Assembly (NCBI GenBank): GCA_950295325.1
Contig: OX485806.1
Span: 16,926,001 to 16,990,000, forward strand
Origin: Polytrichum commune
Lineage: Eukaryota > Streptophyta > Polytrichopsida > Polytrichales > Polytrichaceae
Reading direction: 5' to 3'
Length of the DNA: 64,000 nt
Made by a program: the position numbers and the translations under genes. Each line of letters starts with the position of its first letter. Positions within the stretch are counted from its first letter, which is position 1. Positions 6,249 to 61,555 of this stretch are shown here, one piece after another. Below the pieces are notes generated by a model, which was not told the origin of the DNA, did not search any database, and saw only the letters and a list, made by a program, of their open reading frames with translations.

Positions 6249-7397
6249 ATGATGCCGTGGACCTGGGGGATACCTTGCCACGTCCGATGTCTCCACAGCG
6301 AGGAGAAGAGTTTCGATTTTGGCTCCAGCTTCATGGAGACCCAGCTGCCCGCTTGCTCTGCGCCTGCAGCTTCAAGAAGGAATGCACGTGGCCGTGGGGG
6401 GGCTTCCAATGGTTGCTCATCATCTGCCCCATCACAGCCGCAGGGAGCAGTTCCTCACAAGGCACGTGGGCCAAACTGGACGGAGTCAGAGATGCTCGTC
6501 CTCATAGGGCAGAAGCGCCTCGAGTGGGACGGGCGACACAATTGTAATAGGCCTTCTCTTGCAAGGTTCGTATATGGTAGTACGGCATGGAAAGTGGTGT
6601 TGGAGGGGTGCTTGAGTGTGGTTGGCTTCTGATTGCAGGATGCCGACCAAATCACGAACAAGTGGGATGGGCTCATCAAGGAGTACAAGAAATTGAAGGA
6701 TTACATTGAGGCCTCGGGGTCGGGTAATTGGTGGGGCATGAGTAGAGAGGAGAAAAGGGAGTTGTCTAGAACTAGGAGGATGCTGCTGGAGTTTACCGAA
6801 AGTATGTATATCGAAATGGAAGGTTTTGTAGGGAAGCGGCAGATTTTTGGCAAGCCCACTAATGTCGTGGATTCCGACCGCCCAGTTGCACCAGTGCGGA
6901 GACCTTTTGGCCACAGCCCACCTGCAGCGTTTACACCTTCAGCTGCTCCAGCGTGCAGCCCCACAACAAGCGCAACGACCACACCCAATTCCACAACGCA
7001 AACTACCCCAGGCGATGACACCCCAGGCTCGACGGGTTGCAAGCAAAAATCATCGAGCACCGACAACATGGTGGATTTTGTAAGAGATTTCAACTCCGAC
7101 TACCTCGCACGCGTGGAAGCACAGCACAAGGACAAGCGCATGTGGAGGAGCAATGTTATGGCATTTGACACAGCCCGTGAGGCAAGGATAGCAAAGAAAG
7201 ATGCAGAAAATTTCAACATGGAGCAAAAACTTTATGAGTTGGAGGCAGAAAGAACAAAAAATTTGGGCAACATGACAACAGCCTTGCTCATGTTGGCTTC
7301 GTCCATGGACTCCCTCACAAGGTTCAGTCCTCAATCTCTAACTGTCGCATTTAATTTGCATATGTGTTTATTGTCACGTTCTTTGGGGATGCCTTGA
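6249..7397 (+). CDS. Myb/SANT-like (trihelix-type) DNA-binding protein of the PIF/Harbinger element
   Basis: In PIF/Harbinger transposons this second protein binds element ends and helps the transposase act in the nucleus. The first helix is clear: GPNWTESEMLVLIGQKRLEW near 6,462-6,521. After the stop the frame continues with DADQITNKWDGLIKEYKKLK, the third helix. A Ser/Thr/Pro-rich linker follows, then a charged coiled-coil-like tail (NMEQKLYELEAERTK). A TGA at 6,630-6,632 lies in the same frame between the two halves. Either a 69-bp phase-0 intron (6,570-6,638, ending TTGCAG) removes it, or it is a nonsense mutation inside helix 2-3. The read-through segment AWKVVLEGCLSVVGF resembles the expected W...C...GF helix, which favours mutation. 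The start codon is unresolved; 6,249 is the first ATG in frame. The end overlaps the convergent transposase gene by 24 bases. Confidence 0.7.
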
Positions 7398-9122
7398 GGT
7401 GTGGTCCGCATTTTGGATGCGCACAAGGTAGTCTAGAATGTCCTCTCTTGCCATCTTGCCTTCTAGCAATGCTCTTTCCTCGCTCACAAGGCCCATGGGT
7501 TTTGGAGGGCGGAAATCATTGTCCTCTTCCGTATTGGCAGCTTCGTGGACATCCATTCGTGGCAAGTGGCAGTCCTCTAGAATTTGATCCAATGTGCGAT
7601 CCTTGCTCGCAAGGAGGATGTTGTGCAGTACACAACATGCATGCACCACAGTGGGTAAGAAGTCAAGTTTCAGCGAGGTCTTAGTTCCAATTTCCTTGAA
7701 CCTTGCTTTGAGTATCCCGAATCCCCGCTCGACGCTCATTCGGGTTGAGGAATGTTTGCGATTGAACCAGGCTTCCTCTGCCGTTAGAGGCATCCCCATG
7801 GGTCCTGTCTTGAAAGGTGTTATGCACCAGATCAAGAGGGGGTACCTGCGGTCCGCCACTATGTAGGGAAGAAAAGGAAGTCCCGCAGGCCATGTCATAG
7901 GGTCGTCATGGAACCCTCCCATTATTCCCTCCTCCACTCTCCGATACAACTCCGATGACTTGAAATGTGTGTTGTCATGCAAACTGCCTGGAGGCCCTAT
8001 GTTCACTGATGTAAAGTAGCACTTGGTGTCCACCACGCCTTGTAGTAAAATAGAGAAAGATTTGTTCCGATTGCGGTGGTCGGCCGCCACAATACTATTG
8101 GGCGGCGCTTGAATGTACACATGCGATACATCAATAGCCCCGATACAGTTAGGGAGCCATTGCTTGGACTGGAAGGCGGAGGTCACCCTTGCCAATCTCC
8201 TGCTTGCAGGCCACGCAATGAGGTGACTGAAGTTTATGCTAATGGCCGAGCACACCTGCCTTAGAATTTGGTGCACCGTGGATTTGCCTATGGCGGCCTT
8301 GTCGGCGACAAGAGTTATTGAAACACCATGCATTAGCTTGAATAGTGTCACAACTACCTTTTTCTCAACACCAACGGGTTGCCGCCAGTGCGTATGTTGT
8401 CCTTGAATGTATGGGCGCAGGTCGTGCACCAACCGGTCGAATGTTGTCCTTCGCACCCGCAATATGTCGTAGAACATGTCGGGGGTGTATATGTTGAACA
8501 GGTATTCCTCGAACCAGCACGTGGAGCGTGGCTTGACATACCACTTTGCATCCACGACATGAATGTGCCAAGCGAGGAGGTCAAGTAGATCTCTCACATG
8601 TGGGTGCTCCAACTCGTCCTCCTCGGGCTCATGTTTTGCGAAAGGATTGGGTGCTGCATCGACGCCTCGTTCCTCAGTCCATCTTTTTGTTCGTTTTTTG
8701 TATGCAAGTTGTGCTCTGCTTGCCTCGGTTGATGTTGTGTACATGTGCATGATAGCGACGGACATGTCAATGCACGCCATGATGACGGGAATGGCGGAGG
8801 TCAATTCTAATGCACCGTTTGAATCTACATTCGGTGGAGGGTGCAGAGGGTTGTTGGTCCCCTCTCCGCATGGCGGCAGTGGGCGTACGGGCGAGAAAAT
8901 TGGTGCTGCAGGAGGAGGCGAATCAATGCCAAGAAGACACTCCAGCTCTGGAGTGGCAGCCGAGGCCGTTGGTGTGGCAGCAGGAGCGCACCGCACAAAG
9001 GCAGGCACGTCAAGAGGCGGCAGCGGGGACGTGGGAGGGTCCACATCTGGGTCCGAGTGAGCTGGGATATGCACCACAGAACTTCGAACCTTCACACACA
9101 AATAGACGCAATTTAATGGCAT
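7374..9122 (-). CDS. HARBI1-like PIF/Harbinger transposase (DDE_Tnp_4)
   Basis: The 582-residue protein cuts and joins the transposon ends. Residues 1-110 are a Pro/Ala-rich, low-complexity N-terminus. Residues about 205-310 form the helical region typical of HARBI1 relatives (FDRLVHDLRPYI, KKVVVTLFKLMHG, GKSTVHQILRQV), which resembles a helix-turn-helix. The catalytic DDE core follows: GAIDVSHVYIQAP with D331, GPPGSLHDNTHF with D383, IVADRRYPLLIW, and STRMSVERGFGILKARF with E465, then HACCVLHNILL. All three catalytic acids are present and there is no internal stop or frameshift, so the enzyme may be functional. Length is above the usual 350-450 because of the N-terminal extension. Part of that extension (residues 1-20) could be intronic: a splice acceptor-like CCCAG lies just before the SDPDVDPP region, and a candidate upstream exon is at 10,155-10,526. 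Confidence 0.88.
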   Translation of the reverse strand: MPLNCVYLCVKVRSSVVHIPAHSDPDVDPPTSPLPPLDVPAFVRCAPAATPTASAATPELECLLGIDSPPPAAPIFSPVRPLPPCGEGTNNPLHPPPNVDSNGALELTSAIPVIMACIDMSVAIMHMYTTSTEASRAQLAYKKRTKRWTEERGVDAAPNPFAKHEPEEDELEHPHVRDLLDLLAWHIHVVDAKWYVKPRSTCWFEEYLFNIYTPDMFYDILRVRRTTFDRLVHDLRPYIQGQHTHWRQPVGVEKKVVVTLFKLMHGVSITLVADKAAIGKSTVHQILRQVCSAISINFSHLIAWPASRRLARVTSAFQSKQWLPNCIGAIDVSHVYIQAPPNSIVAADHRNRNKSFSILLQGVVDTKCYFTSVNIGPPGSLHDNTHFKSSELYRRVEEGIMGGFHDDPMTWPAGLPFLPYIVADRRYPLLIWCITPFKTGPMGMPLTAEEAWFNRKHSSTRMSVERGFGILKARFKEIGTKTSLKLDFLPTVVHACCVLHNILLASKDRTLDQILEDCHLPRMDVHEAANTEEDNDFRPPKPMGLVSEERALLEGKMAREDILDYLVRIQNADHTSRHPQRT

Positions 9123-11600
9123 GAAACAAGAAACATAGCGAGGTGTCGAGCATAGTTAGTGGTACTCGTAGGCAACCAGGAATGGCGAGCACAGCAGCTG
9201 CCACCCGCAGCAGAATGCCAGAGTTCAAAGTTTAGTCGTTATTGGTTTGTAGGTGCAGACCAGAACTGTGATGAACACGGAAAATTCTGGCCATATGTGG
9301 AACATGCTTGTTGGCAAGGACCAGTTTGTTTATACAGTGTATTTGAAATTTGAGGCAGCCAACTCTGCCCGATGCTTCCAATGACTGATTACATGTTTGG
9401 GCTATCTGGTTGTGAGAATGTGGGGTTGCCTTGTTGTGGGTATGGACCCCCAGACCCTAGAGTCTGGCGATTGGAAACCGTAATGCCCAGCAGGGCCAGT
9501 AGCCCTTGCCAAGAGCGCACAGCAATGATTACGCAACTCCTCAGACCCTAACAAAAAAACCAGTCGTGCTACTGGAATCGGTCAAAGAGAAACAGAACGC
9601 AGAGTTTCAATAATGGACAGGACCCCAGGCTCAACATACACTCTGCCAACACCTGCCCACACACACAACGAAAAGAACCTAGAAACAAAGTAAAAAGCAC
9701 AACAAATACCATGCGATGTGACACAGAGAGACTGAATGCCCGGGAGTGCGCGGTACTGGCAGGGAGGATTACGGCCGAGTCCATTCCAAGTTGCGTCGCA
9801 AACGTCGAGACTGATCTACGGTGCATGCCACCAAAATGCCTGAACCCGAAGCCAAAAAACGAGGTGCAGGGGACAACACGGCAGTATAGCATGCAAATTG
9901 GAGAGTGGGCACAGTTGAAAGAACACTCAGGGCAACCACAAGCATGCGAAACTGCCCACGTCTGGAGGAATGGTGGCAGGAAAGCTGAATAAATGCCAGC
10001 AGAATGAATTTTGTATTAAATCACAGCAGCCAAATTGGCATACCGCAGGCAGCAGGGAACTGCATGGATGCCACGATACAGAAGAGCATGTCACGGTGCA
10101 GAAGAGGTTCTCGTGAAAGGTGAATTCTAAAATGTAACCTATAACTGCAAGCACCTGAGGCTGCAGAGTTCGAATTGCGGCATCCACTGCGGCCAGCCTC
10201 CCCCGCAGCACTTCGAAGGGGCCGGCGACCAGGTCTTCTGCAGCTTCGCGTTGGATGTGCGGCGTGGACGCAGGCAAAACCTCCTCATCGTTGCGAACCA
10301 TGAACAGTAGAGCGCGTCCGAGGTCATGCGACTCGAGCTCGGCCTCGGAGTCGAACCGCAACATGAGACCTTCCAGATTGCTGCAATCTTCTTGCAGCTC
10401 CCACCTGCAATACATCTCCACAAGCGGGAGAAGTTGCATGCAGGTGGCACGCACCGCGTGTGGGGAGGGAGATGTACCGGCGGCATGCCTGCGCCACACA
10501 AGTTGCCCTGCGGGAGGAGAAGCCATGCGCAGTCCTCAATAAGCAAATACGAAATTCCAAGGAAATGTGCATTTTGCTAAACAAACACGCAAACAGGGGG
10601 GAGGAAATGGACGTACTGAGTTTGGACTCCCGAAACTCCTGGACGTGTTGCGGAGAATGCGAATAGTAACCAAAGCAAAATAGCTTGTAACCCCGCCAAT
10701 AGTCCTCCACCCTGTGCACAGAAACATGCGCATTGTGAGAAGGAAATCCTGGAATGCATTGACGTGTGGGTGCCAAAAGCAACACCGCCACAGCAAAGGT
10801 GTTGCGACCAACGGCAGGAAATTTATGCCGCAAGAGGGGGCCAAGTTCACCACATCGCGGTGAACTGTTGTGCAACAAAAAGAGAGCGGAAGCGAAGGGG
10901 CAAGGAACCCAGCAGCCGCATGCATGGTGACAATCAGAGGGCATGCGAAGAAGGACGTCGAAAACAACGATGACAACTAGAACGACCCAGCGCCACAGGC
11001 GCACGCGCCTGAAGTTACTGGCAGCACAAGGTTCTGGACAGCCTACACCATCCATCCGCCGCGGAACTGAAGCAACAAAACTTGCGAACGGAGAAACAAG
11101 AACCAAGGCCACCCAAGCTGTTACTTTGCAGCGAGCCGCACACAGGCGAGGGGAGAGACAGAGGTGGGCTGCACAGGACGCGTAGCCTGCGAAGGGGGCG
11201 CGGAAAAGTCACGGGCGCAGACCAAAGAGGCCACACAGTTTGTTACGACCCCATACAAGAGCGTGCAGGGATGGAGATTTTCTGCACCCGAAACACAAGT
11301 CCCGGAGCTCGCTGTCGATTGCTGACCCTGGCTCCATCTCTGCGAGCAGTGTCCGTGGTTTGGACAGAGCGTGCGAGAGGCTCGACAACCCTCCAAGTGT
11401 GCGGTGCCGCGGAGCATTCTGTGCGTGGGAGGCCTCAGACCCTGGGAGGGGGGGGCAGAAGACCGTGGATGAAGTCTGTCACTTTCCGGCACAAGCCGGT
11501 GCCACTATGGCCCCCGGCACAGACCTGCCCCGCTGGCATGGACGGCCTCCCTACCCGGCCGCTACCTCCCGCTTAGCCCATATCCCAAACCGGTCCGGCC
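9123..11600 (-). other. Leader region upstream of the transposase gene
   Basis: GC-rich DNA whose minus (sense) strand is T/G-rich, mirroring the left leader of the element. It is probably the promoter, 5' leader and intron(s) of the transposase gene. Apart from the candidate exon at 10,155-10,526, no recognisable coding segment was found. Confidence 0.4.
10155..10526 (-). CDS. Candidate upstream coding exon of the transposon (unknown domain)
   Basis: A 124-codon open stretch begins MASPPAGQLVW and stays open to a CAG|GTGCTT donor-like site. It has a normal, acid-rich composition (for example LRFDSEAELESHDLGRAL and QREAAEDLVAGPFEVLRGRL), unlike the Cys-rich shadow frames around it. It lies on the transposase strand, 1.03 kb upstream of the transposase frame, so it may be the real 5' exon of that transcript. 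It could also be a separate small gene, or chance. No family was recognised. Joining to the downstream frame needs a matching splice phase, which was not proven. Confidence 0.35.
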
Positions 11601-43215: not shown

Positions 43216-46200
43216 ATGACGATGGACGTGTCGCAGGATGCAAAGCAAGGAGTGGATTCAATGGAAGTGGGGATGGTGGTGACCCTGGAGGAAGCTTTGG
43301 CAGAAGCAGAGCTGGAGGCAGTGAAGACACGCACCATCAACCTGGACCAGGTGTTGGAGCTTGCAAGAGTCGAAGCGCAACATCCAAGTGTAGTGGCCGT
43401 GTGGCGAGACACAGACGAGTTGGCTGGTGGACATGAGAAAGTGGTGGCCGAACACATGCTTGGGGCAGCCTTCCCTGCATCCACCACAGGAGGACGCAAG
43501 AAGGTGAGAGAGAGAGAGAGGGAGAGAGAGATGTGATGAGAGAGGCTCTCCACCCAAGCTTAGAGAAGGAAGTCACATATTAAATGATGATCTTCCTATC
43601 ACCCTCCAGCCTCTTTCTATTCATATGTAGATTACACTTGAAGTCTCTTGACAAGACTAGAACTGTGTCCAGATACTACAACACCGATCGCTTGGTTGTT
43701 AATGCATCCACTTTAAATGTTAAGTTCCTCATTAAGTGAATCTGCAAGGTTGCTTGAGACCTTTTGGTGATTGGTGTAAATTAAACTCTTGGAGAAGGAA
43801 GTCGCATTCTAAGCTGATGATCATTTTCTCACCCTTGAGCCTTTTTTTAACTCACATGTGGATTACACTTGTAGGCTCTAGAACAAGTCTAGAACTTGTG
43901 TCAAGATACTAGAACACCGATCACTTGGTTGTTAATGCATCTACTGTAAAGCTTAAGTTCAACATCTAGTGAATGTGTAAGGTTGCTTGAGCCTACCTTT
44001 TGGTGATTTATGTAACTTAAGCTCTTGGGATCTCCAACAGGTGGCCGCTGCACTCGTGATCGGTGACTCCCTGGAGCCGCAGGCGGTGGGACATGCACTC
44101 GTGATGGCAGCCAGTGGAGGCCACATCAACTGCGTGCGTCGTCTCCGTGAGATTCAAAGAGAGCACATGGGAGCAAGCATGTTGGTGTCACGGTTCGCTG
44201 CTTTTGCATTCCTGAAATCTGCAGAACAGGGGCACGTGGAGATAGCCAGGGAGCTTCTGCGGCCAACAGCATCGACAAGCACCGCCATGATGGGGTACGC
44301 CATAGCCACCCGGTGGAAGGACAGCAAGGATCAGTCAGCATCCTCCTCCAACAACAACTACCCGTTTGTGAAACCTGCCGAGAATATGCCAGGGAAGGAG
44401 TGGTTCCAGAAGCTAGCGTCCACGAAATCACTGCTTCCACGAGCTGCTGCACCGATCTTCCGGCCAGGGGTCGGGTGGGAGCTTCGAGGGTTACCCGCGG
44501 TGAGGGATGAGGTCCACGACGCCATCCGCGCTGCTTACACAACTTACCTTGTTTGGAGAGTTGCAACCGTGGCAGCGATGTACTGCCATGCGGATGTGTT
44601 CAAGCTTCTGCTCAAACAGCGAGCCCTGGAGAACACCATATTGGCAGACACGTTTCATGACACCTCCAGATTGAACAGGGGATTCGACAGCGAAGGTAAG
44701 AAGGTGATCGCCGACCGGGCCAAGATGGATACCCTCTTCTACCAGCTGGTGGAGGAGCTGAGCACCAAGAATTACCATGACTGCATCCTGTATGCGCTGT
44801 GGGGCCACATCCAGCGGGGGGGCAGAGACTCCCCCCGGCCACATGCGGGGCGGCCGAGATGCGTTGCGCAGGCGCAGTATGGATTGTGGGAGATGCAGTT
44901 GGAGGTCCCCCTCTTGATGATGCCGGTGGAGCACGCGTTGCAGGACTTGGAGCCGTATCGGCGCTACAAGCATCTCACGCAGCTCTTTAGCCAGAGGGCC
45001 AAAGTCAACATCCAGCTCGTTGCCCTTGTCGAAGCCATGCCCACCTACATCCAGGTGAGAGCTGATTCAAGACCTTATTAATGTTGCACAATTAACAATC
45101 ACTAATGATTTCATTCACAAAATTGTATGTCTGGAGCGGATCCTTGTGCTTGTTGTTCGTGACGGTAGCATTGGGGGAGGTCGGTCTTAAAGTCCTGATT
45201 ATCTATCATTGGTTTAGGTCGTGGTCTTGAGAGAAAATTAAAGTGATTATTGTCCTTGTTGGCTTCGGATTGTAGTGTTAAAGTATTGGTTGCCTCCTAA
45301 ACTTTCTCCTTGGACCCTAGGCCTTCAAGCTCGATAGTGATGCCACATGAACAACCACCCCAAGAAGGATGGTTAACCATGCGCAGTAGGGCCGGGGTTG
45401 ATGGGGTTAAGGGGTGGTTGGCATTCAGTATGCCTTTTCCATGGGAATAGAATTGAACAAAGTAAAGCACTGCCATGACCACAACCACCACTAGTGTAAA
45501 CACCCCTTTAGATGTTGTAGTTTGTGAAATCCTTGCGGATGTGGAAATGGTCCGATTTTGGGTCAAGTGGAGGAATTCAGCCCCTTTTGCAAACATGTCA
45601 AACTGTTGGTACATGGTGGCAACATTGATTGATCACGGGAGGAAGATGATTCTGGCTCGATGTGATGCCGGCTCTAAACTGATGTTCGGGAGATGCTTAA
45701 GGATTTATAATCTTATTTGAGTCAAGTGCAGGAATTAGCAAACGTTGCAAACCTACATACATCAGGAGTAGCCGATTTCTCGTCAATCAGCTTCCGTATC
45801 GATAGAGCTGCACGCGTTCTTTTTGGTGATTGAAATGTTAGTAGTGTTCCCATCACATGAGAAAGATGTGGATTTTGTATTTATCGCCTCTACGGTGATG
45901 TCTGTCATAGCCTTAAGAAAGTGGAATCCGATTTTTAGCCAAGTGCAGTAATTAACCCATGCTGCAATTAACCTATGTACCGAGTCCTCGTACTGAAGCT
46001 GTTCATCAGCAATTACGAAAGGAAGATCCTCACTCAGACCCAAATCACATGACCAGAAGGCAAAGTAGGTCTACTCCCGCTAGGGTGGTAACCTTGTTGG
46101 CGTCATAAAATAAAGTGTTCAATGAAAACATTCCCTCTTCCAATTTTTATTCTTCCTCCCCGCTTTTACGATCTCGGGATATTGTGCCGCTCCTTTGCCA

Positions 46201-48898: not shown

Positions 48899-49690
48899 TT
48901 CTCTTTTGAAGAAGACCCGGGGACCTAATTTGTACCCCTGCAGCAGGATCTGTACCATTTTTATGTCTGATGTGGTTCTCCTGCCGACCACCACCACCCA
49001 TGGGCTGGTCAACACCAAAGATATGGCAGTAATCCGGGAACTCTCAACATACTGGTGCTCTCATAGAGTATGTGTGTCGAGTTTGCTCTATCAAATAAAA
49101 TGGGGAAATTTTTCATGTGAACTATGTGTTGTTTGACTCATCAGAATTGAGATCTCACAAATGACTTAGTGATTGCACTTCTCTTTGAACTACTCTTTGA
49201 ATATCTGGGGACCTAATTTGTCGCCTGCAGTAGCATCTGTACCATTTTTATGTCTAATGTGGTTCTCCTGCTCGCCAGCACCAAAGATTTGGCAGCAATG
49301 AAGAACTCAAAACACAGGTTCTCATAGAGAGTGTCCAGTTTGCTCTATCAAAATACAAAAGGAAAATTTTCATGTGCACTATATGCTGTATGACTCATCA
49401 GAATGGAGATATCACGATTCACTTAGTAACAGCACTTCTCTTTGAGCCTATTTTTGGAACCTGTGGACCTAATGTGTCCCTGTAACAGGAAATGTCCCAA
49501 TTTATGTCTGATGTGGTTCTCCTGCTGGCCAGCACCAAAGATATGGCAGTAATGAAGAACTCAAACCTCAGGTTCTCTCACAGAATATCCAGTTTGCTCT
49601 ATCAAAATAAGAGGGGTTTTTTTGCATGTGAACTACATGCTGTTAAACTCATCAATATGCAGATCTCGCAAATAAGTTAATAGTAATTGA
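48899..49690 (+). repeat. Three tandem copies of a ~260-bp unit 3' of the ankyrin-like gene
   Basis: Units start near 48,899, 49,173 and 49,434, each with CTTCTCTTTGA or CTTCTCTTTTGA. Shared landmarks are GGACCTAAT, TTTATGTCT-ATGTGGTTC, CACCAAAGAT, CCAGTTTGCTCTATCAAA or CGAGTTTGCTCTATCAAA, and CATGTG-ACTA. The first unit begins 75 bp after the stop codon, so the array may be transcribed as 3' UTR. No coding frame is conserved between units. Confidence 0.85.
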
Positions 49691-49965: not shown

Positions 49966-52900
49966 TTACTTCTGACTTGTATTAACTATGAGATCGCAAG
50001 CAGGCTTGTGAGCCTTCCAGACAGAGACTTGACATTGCCGCCCACAATACCTGCAAATTGATGAAGGACAACATTTTACTTACCGTGAGTCCAAATACAA
50101 ATAGGAGTACAGTCAACCCAACATGATCTTATTGTGTATAAATATGATTGATAAATCATGGAGCCATTCTAATCAACACGGTGCATTAATTTTAATGCCA
50201 CACTAAATCATATGTATAGTGTACCTCTTGCCACACAGAAGGGCCACCCATATACATTAGGGTATTGGGTGGCAACAAGGAAGGTGGCATGGGACACTTG
50301 TTATTACATGGAAAAATCATGGAGCCACTCTAATCAGCACGGTGCATTATTTTTAATGCCACACTAAATCATAAGTATAGTGTACTCTTGCCTCAGAGAA
50401 GGGTCACCCATATACATGAGGGACTTCTGTCCCACAAGTCACTTTTGTTGGGGAACATGTGTTGCATGAGCATGCCTTGATTTGAATCATTTATCACAAT
50501 TGTCATCGTTTATATACTCCATGTAGCCCTCTATATAAATTTGGGGCTTGAGTCCAAATTTATTATCATGGAGGATTTATAAGTATCCGAAGCTCAAACC
50601 GAGAAATTTCCACTCATGTATTGGTCAGGTCAAGAGATTTTGTTGAGGTGTCTATTTAGGATTGGATACCTGAAGACAGACTATCCCTCATTATTGATGA
50701 CCTTGTCAAGGTGTGACCACTATGTATGGTTACGGACAAATTTCACGAGGTGCTCAACATTATTTGACCAGTGTCTGCGATCATGGATGCTCTCTAAATG
50801 TTACTTTGACCTCTCACTTGCAGAAGCGTTGCGTATACCTAGGGGAACTTTACATGGAAAGACTACTGAAATGGATCCTGCTTACATGTCTGTTAATGGA
50901 ACTGACAACACAAATTGCCCATTGAAAGGAATGGATTGCAATGGTCTTCTAAACTTCCAGTCGGGTGTTATTAGAGTGCAATAAGCATTTGTACCAGTCA
51001 GCTTTACAGCGTGAGCATCGTTGTACTGCTGATTTCCCACAGACTGCACAAGTGGGCTGCTCCAACAATTCCTGCAACCCAACCCAGAATTGCTATACGA
51101 TGCAAATAAATCTCAATTTCAAACGACCTCCCCCTACAAGTAATAAAACTCAGACAACCACATGTGCAGATTGCAGTGTAGTTACAGCTACTCATCCATG
51201 CTTTTGGTTTTGTGAGTGAAATCCATTGCTGACATGGTGGATGTATCTTTGTACCCCAAAATGGAAGAGTTTGAGTATCTCTTGAGCTTGATGGTGAGTG
51301 GTGACTTCAGACTTTTGTGAAAATACTGTCTGCAATTGGTGTTGGGCAATTTCTCCTGCAAAAATGCAATTCATAACAACTTCAAGGGAACCTGTTATAT
51401 GCAAAGATGAGCCACTTCAAAGCCTTTTTCAAGTCTGGTTCGTTACCCTAATTTCAAGTGGACTGGGTTAAGGCTTCAATCATGATGGAGATACTATGGA
51501 AAAGAACAGGCTTAAACGTTAATAAGGACTATCTAATGCCTAGGAGATCATCCTTTAAATGAATTCGCTAGGAGTTGTGAATTCACTCCAATTCTTTCGG
51601 CGTATCAGAGTCTCCCGCAGCTCAGGCACCTGACATATATCACAAAAGCGAATTTTTCTCAACGTGAGTTTGTGTGTGTGGGTGTTTGGTTGTAAGCCAA
51701 GAGAGTACACTTTCTGCAAACAGGCAGTCGAGTCATGAAGTCCAGTGTGAGAGAGGCCTGGACCTAAGCGCATCTTTACTCATGGAGCCACAAATGGGCC
51801 TCTACCATTAGCTTTTTCGGCCTTTTAAGGCAAGACCGCAGGTTACGTCCCACCTCCAAAGTCCATATGTATCCAAATGTCTTATCACCCATCTATTATG
51901 TCATAGAGGTCTCTCTCAAGAGCCCTTTGACTTGCCATACTTAGAGAGCCGAGAGAACACTTTTATGACATAATTGGTGGATAGTGACATTTTTAGATAC
52001 TTATAGGAGGTTATGGGTAGGACATACCATGCGACCTTACCTTAAAACCTATGAACGGGGAGATCCAATTGCTAGTTACAGATGGGCCAATTGAGTTTGA
52101 AAATGACCGGTTCAAATTCAAGACTTTAGGAAAATCGCCAATTGTTTTAGAGGAATCTATAAAATATACCTTCAATTAATAAGAAAAACCAAAAGATATC
52201 AACATGTAACATGTAACCAGTTGGAGTCGGAAACACTCATGAATCTTGACCAATTGTGCCCAAAATCTCCCCGGACACCGCTAAATAGGCTTAAATAGCC
52301 AATTGTAGAGGCCTGTTTACATTTGCGGCTCCATGAGTGAGGCCCTAAGACTCTTGGTAATTTCATGCGCGAACTTAAATATCGTTTACCTGAATACATA
52401 TATGGAGACAAGAAGGATGTAGATGGCTTTTCCGGTCTTAAGGTCAATATTTTACCAAGGTCATGCTCTTTACAATGCTAATAAATATTATTGAGGAGAT
52501 GACCTGCTCAATGATGAGACGACCTGATATGGCCTCTGGAGCAGTCTGGGGCACCTGGAGCACAAGCTGCTCTACTGCCTGGCACAAATTTTAAGCTACC
52601 CAAAATGGGTTTGTTTAGAATTTCTTTCCTCAGTCACAGAGCAGTTAGCAAGGAAGACCGTGTGGTATTAAGTCCCCAAACTTTCCATTATAGCTAAAAC
52701 AGCAACCAAAATTTTGATAGATTCATTGTCAAGAAATAGGTGCTTTCTTGTGCACGTTAATTTTGATAAAATACACCATGATGTAGAAAGATCACCTAGT
52801 AATCACCCTTGTGCATAGGTTGATGTTGAGGATAGTGAAATTCTAGGTTCAGCATAATGACCTAGGTTAAACAAGAAATAGATAGATGGATACATAGAGT

Positions 52901-55900
52901 AGAGGCACCCATAACCGATCATTTAAGAGATTATGTGCAAGATTGGGAAAAGTATAAGGTGGTACAATTTTTTCCCATCTAGGAAGATAGAAAATCAAGA
53001 GGACTGCAAATTTTCAGTAATTTTATTCCTTAAATTGAAATAACTATGAATTTTTGAAGTCAAAAGTTGGCCCGAACATATTACCAATGTTTAGAGTTTG
53101 CCATAACTGCTCATTCCTCCTCACTTTAGCACTCAAAATCAAAACATGTGTCATGGCATTATTGATTTGGGCCTTATAGGAATTTAGTCCTAACTCGATC
53201 AAAATTCCAGTACCCTATAGATTGCCTGTGGGGTCCTGATCGGGAATAGGTGTCTCTACTGTAATATGCATGAGGTGCAGAGTTGGAGGGCCTGAATACT
53301 GACCCATTTCAAATCTTTGAGGTTTGGCAATTGATCCAGGAGGATATCAATCAAGTATTTCCGAAGCTGCACAGGTCTTGCAAAAGATAAGACAGATCTT
53401 GACCAAGACAAAACACACCATCCATTGGAAATGGGAATAGTACTCATTTCCTTAACAAAGACCTTTATAACGACAGTGTGACTTTTAAATGGAATCAGAC
53501 ATTCATGTTCAGGATAGAAGGTAACCTTGAGGACTTGAGATCGTCGGAAATCATCATAAGTGTACTTGCAACGGCACCGCAAATCCACAATCAAATTGTA
53601 GAGAGCCAACCAAAGCTATCAAGCATCATGGGCCAAAACACCGAGTGTAAGAGATTTTGGACTACCACAAGATTTTACAAACTTGAATGAGTTACGCAGT
53701 TCCAATTTTATTTGCTGGAAAAACTCCAACATCCATACTGAACGATAGATACATCTGACAATTAGTGCAGTTTTGCATACTTATGGGGAGAAGGTCGATA
53801 CACTTTAGGAATACAATTATACATGACAAAATTTCCACTCCAGAGATAGACATCAAGAATACAAGAAATACTAAGATGAAAACCTGGGCATCAGGCTTGG
53901 TCAACTTGAACCAATCACCTGGTTTCACTTCGATCCACTTGCCTTCTACATACTTCTCAATCTGCACCCAGTATCAAAATTGGAGCACTTGCAAGCCCAC
54001 ATCTTATTCGTTTCATAAAGGTTGATTGAGACATACTTGGTTTCTACAATAACCATATGCTAACACTGATATACTGGGACACCATTCCACTTTATGTTAC
54101 AGTTTAACTCCACTGAAGAGAATGGTAAATAGGTTGGGAAATCAGCTGGCATTCTTATGAAAGGCGTAGACAAGGATATAGAGCTTAACCACAGGTTTTC
54201 CAGAGCGGACACGTTTTCGTTGCCAAGGAGGATTCTCCACAAGAGGCACAAGTGCCATAATCATGTCATGACAGTCCAGGATACGTGCCTGCACCATTGC
54301 TCATCATCAACTTATCCGCAAAACATCATCAGAGTTCTATTACACCACATATATCTTGCCGCTTAACAAATGACCACATAAGATACACCAAGGTAAGTGG
54401 GCCTATAACAGATACTTTAATCTCTACACCCACTTTTCCTAGGATATTAAACATGCAATAACTACAATATGATTAGCTAATCCAACTCAAGGCTGTAGTC
54501 ATTTTCCTCATACTTCTTGGAGCTCATGTGATGTTCTATTCATTATCAAAGTGAAAGGCTCTCTTTCTTCTTAGATGATCATATAGGTCCCCCCAATTAT
54601 GTTGACTATTGAACCTAGAATGTTTAACAAATTTTGAGCATGTAGTCCAATCTCTATCTTTTTCATGTCCATTCTTTGATCCACACATAGTCACACACCA
54701 CTTGAATATAGATGTCCTCAAAAGATAAATAGCCGAATTAGGCCTGCTTACCTTACAGTATATGGAGTTCAACCTAGAATAAAATAAAATCATTGTGCTC
54801 ACCATAACCGAGAGAGGGAGGTCGCTCATGTAGTCTGTCAGGTATCTGCACTGTGAAACTCTCAAAGTTATCACGACAGCATGTGGGCTTCAAAAGGTTA
54901 TATTGAATAATGGCTTCTCAGTATTGGAGTAGAGTACAGTCCTCTTTTATCTGCAATGTCTTCAAAGTTCTCAAGTTCATGTGAAATGTACAGTTGTTTA
55001 CAGTGATTGATTGACCTTCTACATATACCATTGAAGTAATTCTCAGCTCCATAATCGAATCATATTTTTACAATGAAATGTGAATTGGGCTATAGTTTCT
55101 CCTTGTTGAGTGTGAAGTGTGTACCTCAAAACTGTCAGTGAACAGACCCCAATCCCGAACTGCATGCTGTCCAACTGCACATGCACAAAACGAAATTTTG
55201 AACTCAGATACCAATTGGAGAGCTCCAACTTCAAGTATGACTTGGAAGGATGAGAGTCATGATTCTTGATCCTTGATTGATTATTCTGGTGCATGACGCA
55301 AACCTTTTCTTTTAGCTCCTCCTCAGGTGTCATGTCAACAATCTCCCTTGCACTTCGTTCTGTACACAAACTCAACAAATGTGGTGTTTAAATCATATAT
55401 GTATCCTTTTTGTTGAGTTGGACGCAGTAAATATGGATATATCAATCCCCTAACTTGTACTAAGCAAAATCCAGAGGTTTTGATATCGTGATACTGTCTC
55501 CCTGTCAGAAAGCAAGCAGGAAAGCACCCATATTATCCAAGAGAAGTTTGAACATATTGGACATATTTAGTTTATCCTTGGACTAATTTCAGCTCAGTTG
55601 AATTTGTCTTTGCAATTTGGAAATCTCAAAGCATCAATGTCAAAAATCTGTTTCAGGTGATACCTATATAAGCTGCATCTTGAGCTCCATCTGTATTGAG
55701 GTACACAATTTTACGGTAGCAGTAATCTGCAAGCTGGAACCATCAACAGATCCACAACATGGACATCATGTTCAGTGTTTTGTGCCCAAAAACATCACAA
55801 GACCCGCAAGGGGTCCAAGTTGTCTCCTCCTCAGAAATCGAAATTAGGGATTCAGCATTTACAAGGTAGCGAGTAAAGTCATTGAGACAACATGATTACC

Positions 55901-57334
55901 TCAAGAAGAGAGGCTGCATTCATGGATTCGCACACTTCTCGGTGATACAAGATCACCTGCACACCAAGCAAATGGCTGACATGAGTTTCACAAAATTGAT
56001 AATTGACGAATATGAGGTACATGTGCTGTACTGAAGAGCAAGAAAATACCTCAAGCAAGTTGATGATGGTTGTCTCCTGATACAACACAAGGTGGAGGTT
56101 GATGTGAGAAGCCTGCTCTGCAAGTGGTTTCTTAATTACCGGGAGAACTTTGTCCTTCCAGATCTGTGAAACAAAGTACAACATGTAATAATTAGAGAAA
56201 ACCAGAGGTGGACAAAGGCAACAAAAGATCACATGTGAGTCACTTTGTTGATATTTACCACCAATTTATAGAGCGAAAGCTTGCTGAATGTGCAAGTAAA
56301 AAGAGGACTGTGGATATTTTGAATTTAACTGTATTCTGCAAGTAATATGTTGCAGTTGTTGGTTTTCACAGAGTACTGACTTCAATTACAAGCAGCTCAT
56401 GTATGAGAACTCCCAGTTTGTCATGACTTGTCAATGCCTACACACTCACAAAAGCCCACATCTAATGCCTCAAACCTCAGTTTTGGCATTGCGATCACTA
56501 TGTAGTGTTACATGTAAAGTTCTCATCAGGAATATTTGAAAGAGAATGCACAGATCAATGTATTCGCAAGGTTTATATTTTCGTCACAACCTGAGGCAAT
56601 AAAGAGATTCCTACATACCACCATGACAAACTCATCACAATGTGCCATTGTATTATAATGTGCCTGCAACCCACCCAGTGTACTAAGTTAGTCAGCTTTA
56701 TTAATTATTTTAATAGTGAAATTTTCATCAAGAAAGAAATTAGGGCTATCCGCCCACCTCCAACGGAGAGCATTCAATAAGCACTAACACAAACCCTGAT
56801 TCAACTTTAGTTGGATGTCAAACAAGGTGTGCATCTTGGTGAATTCATTGCAATTACCTGCAAGTTCAGTTTCTCCAGGTTTGAGTGCTGTGTTAACCAT
56901 TTTCTGCTTCCCACCTGCATCAGCTTCCACATACTTCACAATGTGACGTGATCACAAACTTGACCTATTACGGAGTGTGTTCTCTTCATCACCACCTTCT
57001 TTAACCCTCGGAGCTTTTCTTGAATGTTAACAATGTAGTAGCATAAGCAGAATGTAGGATGATTAATCTTATACTGGCCAAAAATTCTCATAAGCCGGTC
57101 CGGGAGCTGAGGCAACATACCATGTCAACCCCTCAGAATCGAATAAGGACCATGGATCCCGACCTCGATAGCGAAGAATATAATGCGTGCCAGTTTGTAA
57201 CAATTTCTTTACTTTCTTGCCAAGTTAGGAATTACCTGCTCAATGGAGAAGGTGGTGAGGTACTGCACGATGAATTCGGCATCCTCTCTGTTCAACAACA
57301 CCTGATCCAACCAGCGCCAAGACATTTCAAACAT
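49966..57334 (-). CDS. ZMYND10: ZMYND10 (dynein axonemal assembly factor), 19 exons, 452 residues
   Basis: ZMYND10 works in the cytoplasm with LRRC6 and HSP90-type chaperones to fold dynein heavy chains before they enter cilia. Exons (minus): 57334-57236, 56914-56858, 56663-56619, 56437-56381, 56163-56050, 55956-55900, 55733-55664, 55359-55304, 55174-55125, 54845-54803, 54288-54190, 53961-53884, 53615-53526, 53366-53304, 52578-52504, 51629-51587, 51355-51255, 51071-50995, 50050-49966. All phases agree and the total is 1,359 nt; human ZMYND10 has 440 residues. Family blocks, in order, are WLTQHSNLEKLNLQ, IWKDKVLPV, ETTIINLLE, YHREVCES, ADYCYRKI, ARILDCHDM, LALYNLIVD, LIDILLDQLPNL, EIAQHQLQTVF. 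The C-terminal MYND finger has all eight ligands: C407, C410, C418, C421, C427, C431, H439, C443. An in-frame TGA just upstream fixes the start. The exon 17 donor is the least certain. Introns carry a MITE and several repeats. Confidence 0.9.
50154..50427. repeat. Two direct copies of a ~105-bp unit in the last ZMYND10 intron
   Basis: Copies at about 50,154-50,262 and 50,322-50,427 share AATCATGGAGCCA, CACGGTGCATTA, TTTTAATGCCACACTAAATC, TATAGTGTAC and CACCCATATACAT. The separating segment contains a GGTGGCAACAAGGAAGGTGG stretch. Confidence 0.8.
52049..52280 (-). mobile_element. ACCGGTT-family hAT-like MITE, copy 6, in a ZMYND10 intron
   Basis: Starts CTATGAACGGGGAG and ends CTCCCCGGACACCG. 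Contains GACCGGTTCAAATTC and AACCAGTTGGAGTCGG. No clear 8-bp duplication (CTTAAAAC against CTAAATAG). It lies between exons 15 and 16 of ZMYND10. Confidence 0.7.
52895..53258 (+). repeat. Composite repeat block (copy B), uninterrupted
   Basis: Matches the split block at 25.15-27.2 kb and lacks both transposons found there, so it records the pre-insertion arrangement. It lies in the ZMYND10 intron between exons 14 and 15. Confidence 0.65.
54430..54770 (+). repeat. Dispersed repeat family R2 copy in a ZMYND10 intron
   Basis: Carries CCTAGGATAT, CATTATCAAAGTGAAAGG, GTCCCCCCAATTATGTTGAC, TATTGAACCTAGAATG, TTTTGAGCATG and CCGAATTAGGCC in family order. It lies between exons 10 and 11. Confidence 0.7.
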
Positions 57335-60577: not shown

Positions 60578-61555
60578 ATGGACGGGGAGAACTATCTGAT
60601 CACGTTGTTAGGAAATAGTCCTCCAAGCTTGGTTATGACGCAGAGTTCTCAAAATTCTACTCCGGTGTCTTCAGTTCCACTCTCTTCCATTCCCGTTGCT
60701 TTTGTTTTCGTTAGTTCTGTGTTGACAGGTCCACCCCCTCCTCTCCCACGACGGGCTCCGGTTGTTGTGTAGGAGCGGCATTGGAGCAATGCTGCTGTGA
60801 AATTTTTATTGGAACAATGCAAGGAACACGTCGAGGCACACAACACGATCACGATGCGATCGTATCAATGGGCGTGGGTGCACAAGTTGTTGATTACGCA
60901 GTTCCCTCAGGAGTCTGGGCGGAAGGTCAAGTCCTTGTCAGACAAGTGGGAGAAGTTGCGGAGCACCTATTCCAAGATCAAGAAATTGCGCAACCAAACG
61001 GGTGCAGGTGTGCGGGACAACGGTGCGAAATTCATATGGTACGATCAAATTGACGAAATTCTTAGTCTCACTGCAAAGGCCAACGGTGTTCCAGGAGCAA
61101 TGGACGAAGGGGTGTCCGCGCTCGTGCCCGGTACTTCCAACGCTTCGACGGATGGTTGTGAGGAAGCCGACGGAGACGGTGAGCCATCTTGGGTGCACTC
61201 ACCGCAGCGCACCAATCTCGAAGCACACAGTGGAACTGACCAGCAGAGCAACGACACCACTCCACGAACACGAGCATCGAATTTAGTCGGGGTTTCGGGA
61301 AAAGGTACTAATTCCACACCATCTAAACGGGCTAGGATTGACAGGAATTTGATGGATTTATTGGATAGACTTGCAGATTCAACTGCTGAGATAGAGCGGT
61401 TGAGAATCGAAGCTGCACTAACAATGCACAAAGATAATTTAATAGAACGCCATGAAAACATAAAATTGGAACTTGAAATGTTTAGATTGCAACAGGCGAG
61501 CGGGGAAAGGATGGCAGCTATGTTTGCAGAAGTTGTTAAAAAAAATTCTCAATAG
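60578..61555 (+). CDS. Myb/SANT-like DNA-binding domain protein, one in-frame stop
   Basis: The frame starts MDGENYLITLLGN, followed by a Ser/Pro/Val-rich segment. After a TAG at 60,770-60,772 it continues in the same frame with a Myb_DNA-bind_3-type domain: HWSNAAVKFLLEQCKEHVEA, then SLSDKWEKLRSTYSKIKKLR, then AKFIWYDQIDEILSLTAKA. A Ser/Thr-rich linker and a coiled-coil-like tail follow (LADSTAEIERLRIEAALTMH to the QQASGERMAAMFAEVVKK end). A 62-63-bp phase-0 intron (about 60,710-60,772, from GTTAGTTC to TTGTGTAG, with a strong pyrimidine tract) would remove the stop. Otherwise it is a nonsense mutation just before the domain. Proteins of this class include plant transcription factors and partners of PIF/Harbinger transposases. 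No transposase or terminal repeats are visible nearby, so it may be a domesticated gene or an element fragment. It is unrelated in detail to the Myb-like gene at 6-7 kb. Confidence 0.72.

Follow-up and report, generated by a model that had tools for sequence, protein, structure and literature searches.

A ZMYND10 (DNAAF7) gene in a moss-like genome and its predicted inner-arm dynein clients

In the mouse, loss of ZMYND10 (DNAAF7) is reported to abolish both the inner and the outer dynein arms (PMC5895051, PMC6044906), and two proposals for its clients are in print: one in which dynein heavy chains are the clients and FKBP8 and HSP90 act alongside ZMYND10 (PMC6044906), and one in which it stabilises the outer-arm chain DNAI1, which in turn stabilises DNAI2, the MYND part of the protein being required (PMC5895051). 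ZMYND10 is further described as binding FKBP8 or DNAAF11, never both together (PMC12633730). Within the green lineage, the Chlamydomonas orthologue (Cre08.g358750) is reported to be about 29-fold up 10 min after removal of the flagella (PMC3689809), and in the moss Physcomitrella patens another assembly factor, HEATR2/DNAAF5, is kept with inner-arm-only sperm, which was used to argue for a role of HEATR2 in both arm types (PMC4168999). Here, we analysed a 64,000-nucleotide stretch of plant DNA (the window), whose minus strand carries a ZMYND10 gene at 57334-49966, together with the genome to which it belongs. Taking the evidence jointly, we consider it very probable that this gene represents ZMYND10 in a moss-like land plant, as an orthologue that helps to assemble inner-arm dyneins in sperm.

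Spliced protein-to-DNA alignment, followed by joining of the exons, yielded 19 coding exons with 458 codons plus a stop; the start codon was placed at 57334 (a second candidate ATG follows 3 codons on), the stop codon ends at 49966, the frame is open throughout, and 18 of 18 introns are of the GT-AG type. A sequence-only reading had placed a 19-exon ZMYND10 gene at this site, and we recovered the same end bases and the same exon count; its joined, in-phase product also stood, while the length it gave, 452 residues, differs from the 458 of the re-derived model, whose exon ends are likewise predicted. Because the aligner accepted introns only with an AG acceptor and a GT donor (or, at a penalty, a GC donor), penalised stops and was guided by a working copy of the human ZMYND10 sequence, the uniform introns and the open frame are partly so by construction, and the evidence for the gene is therefore the score control. 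When the same aligner was run for scores only, the true protein reached 724.75 on the minus strand, against a mean of 231.2 (standard deviation 8.9) and a maximum of 254.4 for 20 shuffled proteins, which rules out chance picking of exons; the reversed protein scored 210.3, the plus strand 199.8, and a different 7.9-kb part of the window gave 212.8.

The nearly collinear match to animal ZMYND10 proposed by the sequence-only reading was borne out along the whole protein. Unspliced tblastn with the human query gave collinear matches at descending window positions (e.g. 22-47, 79-140, 279-311, 390-413, and 413-432 of the query), blastp of the 458-residue product against the human protein gave an E-value of 9e-99 with 37.8% identity over 445 columns, and in a global alignment 168 of 436 aligned pairs were identical. 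Identity is spread over five segments at 36-43% each, except for 35/99 in the first, and 147 identical pairs lie outside human residues 391-440, so that the N-terminal region is collinear as well. The human reference itself passed two checks: over the MYND part it is consistent with PDB 2d8q, and a published mouse antigen peptide, 339-362, agrees in 22 of 24 residues with positions 339-362 (PMC5895051).

At the C-terminus, zf-MYND was the sole Pfam family above the cut-off (residues 413-449, 2.1e-9). Aligned to human ZMYND10, the product keeps all eight zinc ligands, a set which we take to be the C4-C2HC ligands of the ZMYND10 MYND finger; the finger is thus full, as had been claimed. A PDB search at E <= 0.001 returned four sequences, led by two human ZMYND10 fingers (2.8e-9 and 1.3e-8) and followed by CBFA2T1 (2.6e-4) and an ETO2 fusion (4.3e-4), the match to ZMYND10 spanning the MYND finger only; hence no unrelated MYND family came out ahead. 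Furthermore, human residues Val16, Leu39, Leu266, and Trp423 are all conserved in the moss product, the first three of which we assume to be patient sites.

The partner of ZMYND10 is present as well. Searching the same genome for LRRC6 had been proposed alongside the gene, and a human LRRC6 query gave matches at C1:39676301-39676477 (47% identity) and C1:39679196-39679372 (56%, E 3.3e-10); the two lie on a common strand and in order, with more LRRC6-like exon texts between and beyond them, and we assign the LRRC6/DNAAF11 gene to C1:39.676-39.679 Mb. A third match, at C1:52.097 Mb, covers only the leucine-rich-repeat part (37% over 87 residues). In addition, PIH1 matches were found at two loci.

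Turning to the possible clients, the heavy-chain family PF03028 gave 13 matches at eight loci (17 candidates scored), here L001 to L008. A cut of 5.5-6.5 kb was taken around each and its conserved exons were read, and for seven of the eight the joined pieces were compared with PDB; all seven were classified as inner-arm, leading the best outer-arm chain by 154-326 bits. L005 was topped by an unnamed 8glv chain followed by DNAH10 (I1 alpha type), and L006 was closest to the I1 beta chain and DNAH2. L001 was topped by an unnamed 8glv chain followed by DNAH6, L002 and L004 were closest to chains of the DNAH12/7/3 type, L007 to two unnamed 8glv chains and DNAH12/7/3, and L008 to DHC2 and DNAH1. 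Two labels had to be interpreted: the top PDB row of L002 is a 4069-residue chain labelled malate dehydrogenase, which we took as a labelling error, and the label CFAP57 stands on the 4730-residue chain that gave the best outer-arm row for L002, L004, and L007 and that we interpreted as an outer-arm heavy chain. L003, placed by comparison among these loci rather than with PDB, was nearest L002 (score 720, the next 583). The DHC_N1 tail domain, presumably carried by outer-arm heavy chains, occurs in two places only, on the same strand as L005 and L006 and about 50 kb upstream of them, a position from which we infer that these tails belong to the two I1 genes. Thus, an exon-by-exon search found no outer-arm heavy chain among the eight PF03028 loci, seven of them typed by PDB. 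Nor was any of the eight loci (seven classified) recognised as a cytoplasmic dynein 2 heavy chain, and this genome may therefore lack the retrograde motor of intraflagellar transport or have a diverged one.

The intermediate and light chains gave a similar picture. The human DNAI2 query had a single genome match, at C1:3.752 Mb (34% over 47 residues, E 7.2e-4), whose joined exons scored 97.8 bits with IC140 against 72.5 with the outer-arm 70 kDa chain, and the three matches of the DNAI1 query all fell within one gene at C3:28.22 Mb, which scored 169.3 bits with IC138, 159.6 with human DNAI4, and at best 132.4 with DNAI1; both loci were therefore rejected as orthologues of their queries. Hence the search turned up no orthologue of DNAI1 or DNAI2, the genome queries having reached only the inner-arm I1 chains IC138 and IC140. 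The light chain p28 (PF10211) is represented by one gene at C5:50.948 Mb with five exon matches. The suggestion that this copy may serve inner arms only, and the search for outer-arm genes that went with it, are in this way supported at the gene level: inner-arm heavy chains, IC138, and IC140 were all that was reached.

Several points nevertheless weigh against the reading of the gene as a ZMYND10 that serves inner arms. First, the genome search works exon by exon and can miss domains cut by introns: a genome-wide MYND profile scan gave ten matches from 48 candidates, among which the ZMYND10 gene itself is absent because an intron cuts its finger. Second, profile searches of the genome for the outer-arm docking family PF21773 (no matches) and for DNAAF3 (PF14740, no candidates) both came without a working positive control. 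Third, the human reference has Tyr at residue 379, where the moss product has Phe, and a patient change at this position (written T379C) is reported to abolish binding of ZMYND10 to FKBP8, as does W423A (PMC6044906). Finally, expression and splice sites of the gene are predicted from DNA alone. Given the missed finger, and since runs of N in the assembly may hide further genes, we regard the absence of outer-arm genes as likely rather than proven.

One alternative is that outer arms do exist, their genes having been missed, and that ZMYND10 serves both arm types as it does in animals. Split or diverged domains, such as the finger of ZMYND10 itself, do escape the search, L003 was placed without PDB, and the two uncontrolled profile searches concern this very question; against this, eight heavy-chain loci were found and all seven that were typed are inner-arm, the DNAI1 and DNAI2 queries reached more distant inner-arm paralogues and no orthologue, and mosses without outer arms have been published (PMC4168999, PMC4361367, PMC12637542). 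We therefore consider missed outer arms unlikely.

The exons of the gene lie on the minus strand at 57236..57334 (exon 1, with the start codon), 56858..56914 (exon 2, 12/19 residues identical to human), 56619..56663 (exon 3), 56381..56437 (exon 4), 56050..56163 (exon 5), 55900..55956 (exon 6), 55664..55733 (exon 7), 55304..55359 (exon 8), 55125..55174 (exon 9), 54803..54845 (exon 10), 54193..54288 (exon 11), 53884..53961 (exon 12), 53526..53615 (exon 13), 53304..53366 (exon 14, 13/21 identical), 52504..52578 (exon 15), 51587..51629 (exon 16), 51234..51355 (exon 17), 50995..51071 (exon 18, where the MYND finger starts), and 49966..50050 (exon 19, with the rest of the finger and the stop codon), all as given by the spliced model. 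Several donors diverge strongly from GTAAGT, for instance GTGGTTAA, GTTTTCAT, and GTCATCTC, and the predicted exon ends are approximate there, as at the uncertain 3' end of exon 11 with its donor GTGGTTAA. These poor donors, the weak conservation of exon 3 (2/15 identical, the weakest) and exon 8 (4/19), and an expression that is predicted only would suit a decaying relic out of use; 458 stop-free codons, conservation along the full length, the complete set of ligands, and the presence of partner and client genes speak against it and make such a relic very unlikely.

A further alternative, that ZMYND10 was recruited in this lineage to a task outside the flagellum, has nothing direct in its favour beyond the fact that clients and expression are predicted only, and it appears highly improbable in view of the co-occurrence of ZMYND10 with LRRC6 and inner-arm dyneins. 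That the gene encodes some other MYND-finger protein has a negligible chance: such fingers are common, with ten further MYND matches in this genome, yet the alignment to ZMYND10 runs the whole length with its 147 identical pairs outside the finger, and PDB puts ZMYND10 fingers on top. The gene also looks to be single copy, as 13 of 15 matches of the product in its own genome fall inside the ZMYND10 gene; the other two (C4:23.85 Mb and C7:0.89 Mb) cover the MYND finger only, which rules out a second ZMYND10 copy there.

Returning to ZMYND10 as an assembly factor for inner-arm dyneins, its product would, by analogy with animal work, act as a cytoplasmic co-chaperone in developing swimming sperm, where together with LRRC6/DNAAF11 and the HSP90 system it may stabilise newly made dynein subunits, which would then be assembled ahead of import into the flagellum. 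As the gene census turned up neither heavy nor intermediate chains of the outer arm, it suggests inner-arm dyneins as clients: on the one hand the two I1 heavy chains together with IC138 and IC140, on the other the single-headed heavy chains paired with p28. Binding of the moss protein to LRRC6 and to FKBP8-HSP90 would be expected of a ZMYND10; Trp423, the residue compared in this respect, is conserved.

Compared with the known systems, the moss product resembles human and mouse ZMYND10 in its collinear whole length, its eight ligands, and Trp423, and in having LRRC6 as a partner within the genome, whereas animals have both arm types and DNAI1, not found here, as a reported client (PMC5895051). 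Chlamydomonas offers an orthologue from the green lineage, set beside the moss gene by description rather than by sequence, but it keeps its outer arms. Physcomitrella HEATR2 is the closer parallel in being an assembly factor kept in a moss without outer arms, but it is a HEAT-repeat protein encoded by a separate gene, and Physcomitrella belongs to the Bryopsida, as this genome probably does not. Secondary loss of the outer arm is reported for Physcomitrella and Selaginella (PMC4361367), and Physcomitrella is cited again by PMC12637542 together with a 1985 paper on widespread outer-arm absence in lower-plant sperm. Outer-arm loss in mosses and the argument from a retained factor are thus already published, and ZMYND10 is an addition to them rather than a surprise. 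Among the matches listed, we found no report of a moss ZMYND10, and a literature search combining ZMYND10 with Marchantia gave no paper; we do not claim the gene as unreported, as a moss ZMYND10 may already be recorded in Figure 1 of PMC12633730, on assembly factors across eukaryotes, the accessible text of which names no moss or plant.

What the moss gene adds is a means of separating the two printed client proposals, heavy chains (PMC6044906) and outer-arm DNAI1 (PMC5895051), as a plant that appears to lack the outer arm but has ZMYND10 and LRRC6 sets them apart. Since both factors are kept here with the outer arm seemingly missing, DNAI1 cannot be the sole reason for keeping ZMYND10. In this genome ZMYND10 is probably not serving DNAI1, and if DNAI1 is truly missing, ZMYND10 would be kept for inner-arm clients, be it heavy chains generally or IC138. 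We go one step further with evenly divided confidence: this lineage may have lost DNAI1, the one intermediate chain reported as a direct client, along with the entire outer arm while ZMYND10 stayed whole, so that the ancestral, indispensable client would be an inner-arm one, either heavy chains or IC138 as the I1 chain resembling DNAI1, the animal role in DNAI1 being one case of it. If so, moss sperm would be a clean setting for finding the inner-arm client of ZMYND10.

ZMYND10 also marks the genome as one with swimming sperm, and the lineage with flagellated cells to which the sequence-only reading had narrowed the organism agrees with the inner-arm heavy chains, IC138 and IC140, p28, and LRRC6 found in it, as well as with moss-like LEAFY types. 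Seven contigs carry 406.07 of 407.81 Mb, C4 starts with the plant-type repeat AAACCCT, and relatives of Polytrichum have, we assume, seven chromosomes. Three loci (L013, C1:40.57 Mb; L014, C1:62.30 Mb; L015, C7:8.64 Mb) carry the LEAFY DNA-binding domain, and the specificity position, taken as 312, is His in one gene and Asp in two, corresponding to types I and II under our assumption of which residue marks which type. Both types are reported from mosses outside Bryopsida, namely Tetraphis, Andreaea, Sphagnum, Takakia, and (from earlier work) Polytrichum commune, and a single type II from a liverwort (PMC6588583). Taken with the seven contigs of chromosome size, the predicted LEAFY types make a moss outside Bryopsida the best guess.

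As for the rest of the window, Rfam and tRNA scans of its 64,000 nucleotides gave no matches. A 593-residue open frame on the minus strand at 7374-9155 encodes a plant-type DDE transposase (DDE_Tnp_4, 4.1e-29; Plant_tran, 3.3e-13). On the plus strand, a 366-residue open frame at 43981-45080 has weak ankyrin-repeat matches (8.2e-5), and a 260-residue open frame at 60773-61555 resembles Myb/SANT-like DNA-binding domains (1.4e-5, slightly under the Pfam cut-off). Just downstream of the ZMYND10 stop codon, at 49004-49673, lies a tandem array in which a 254-base unit is repeated 2.6 times, the copies being 77% alike.

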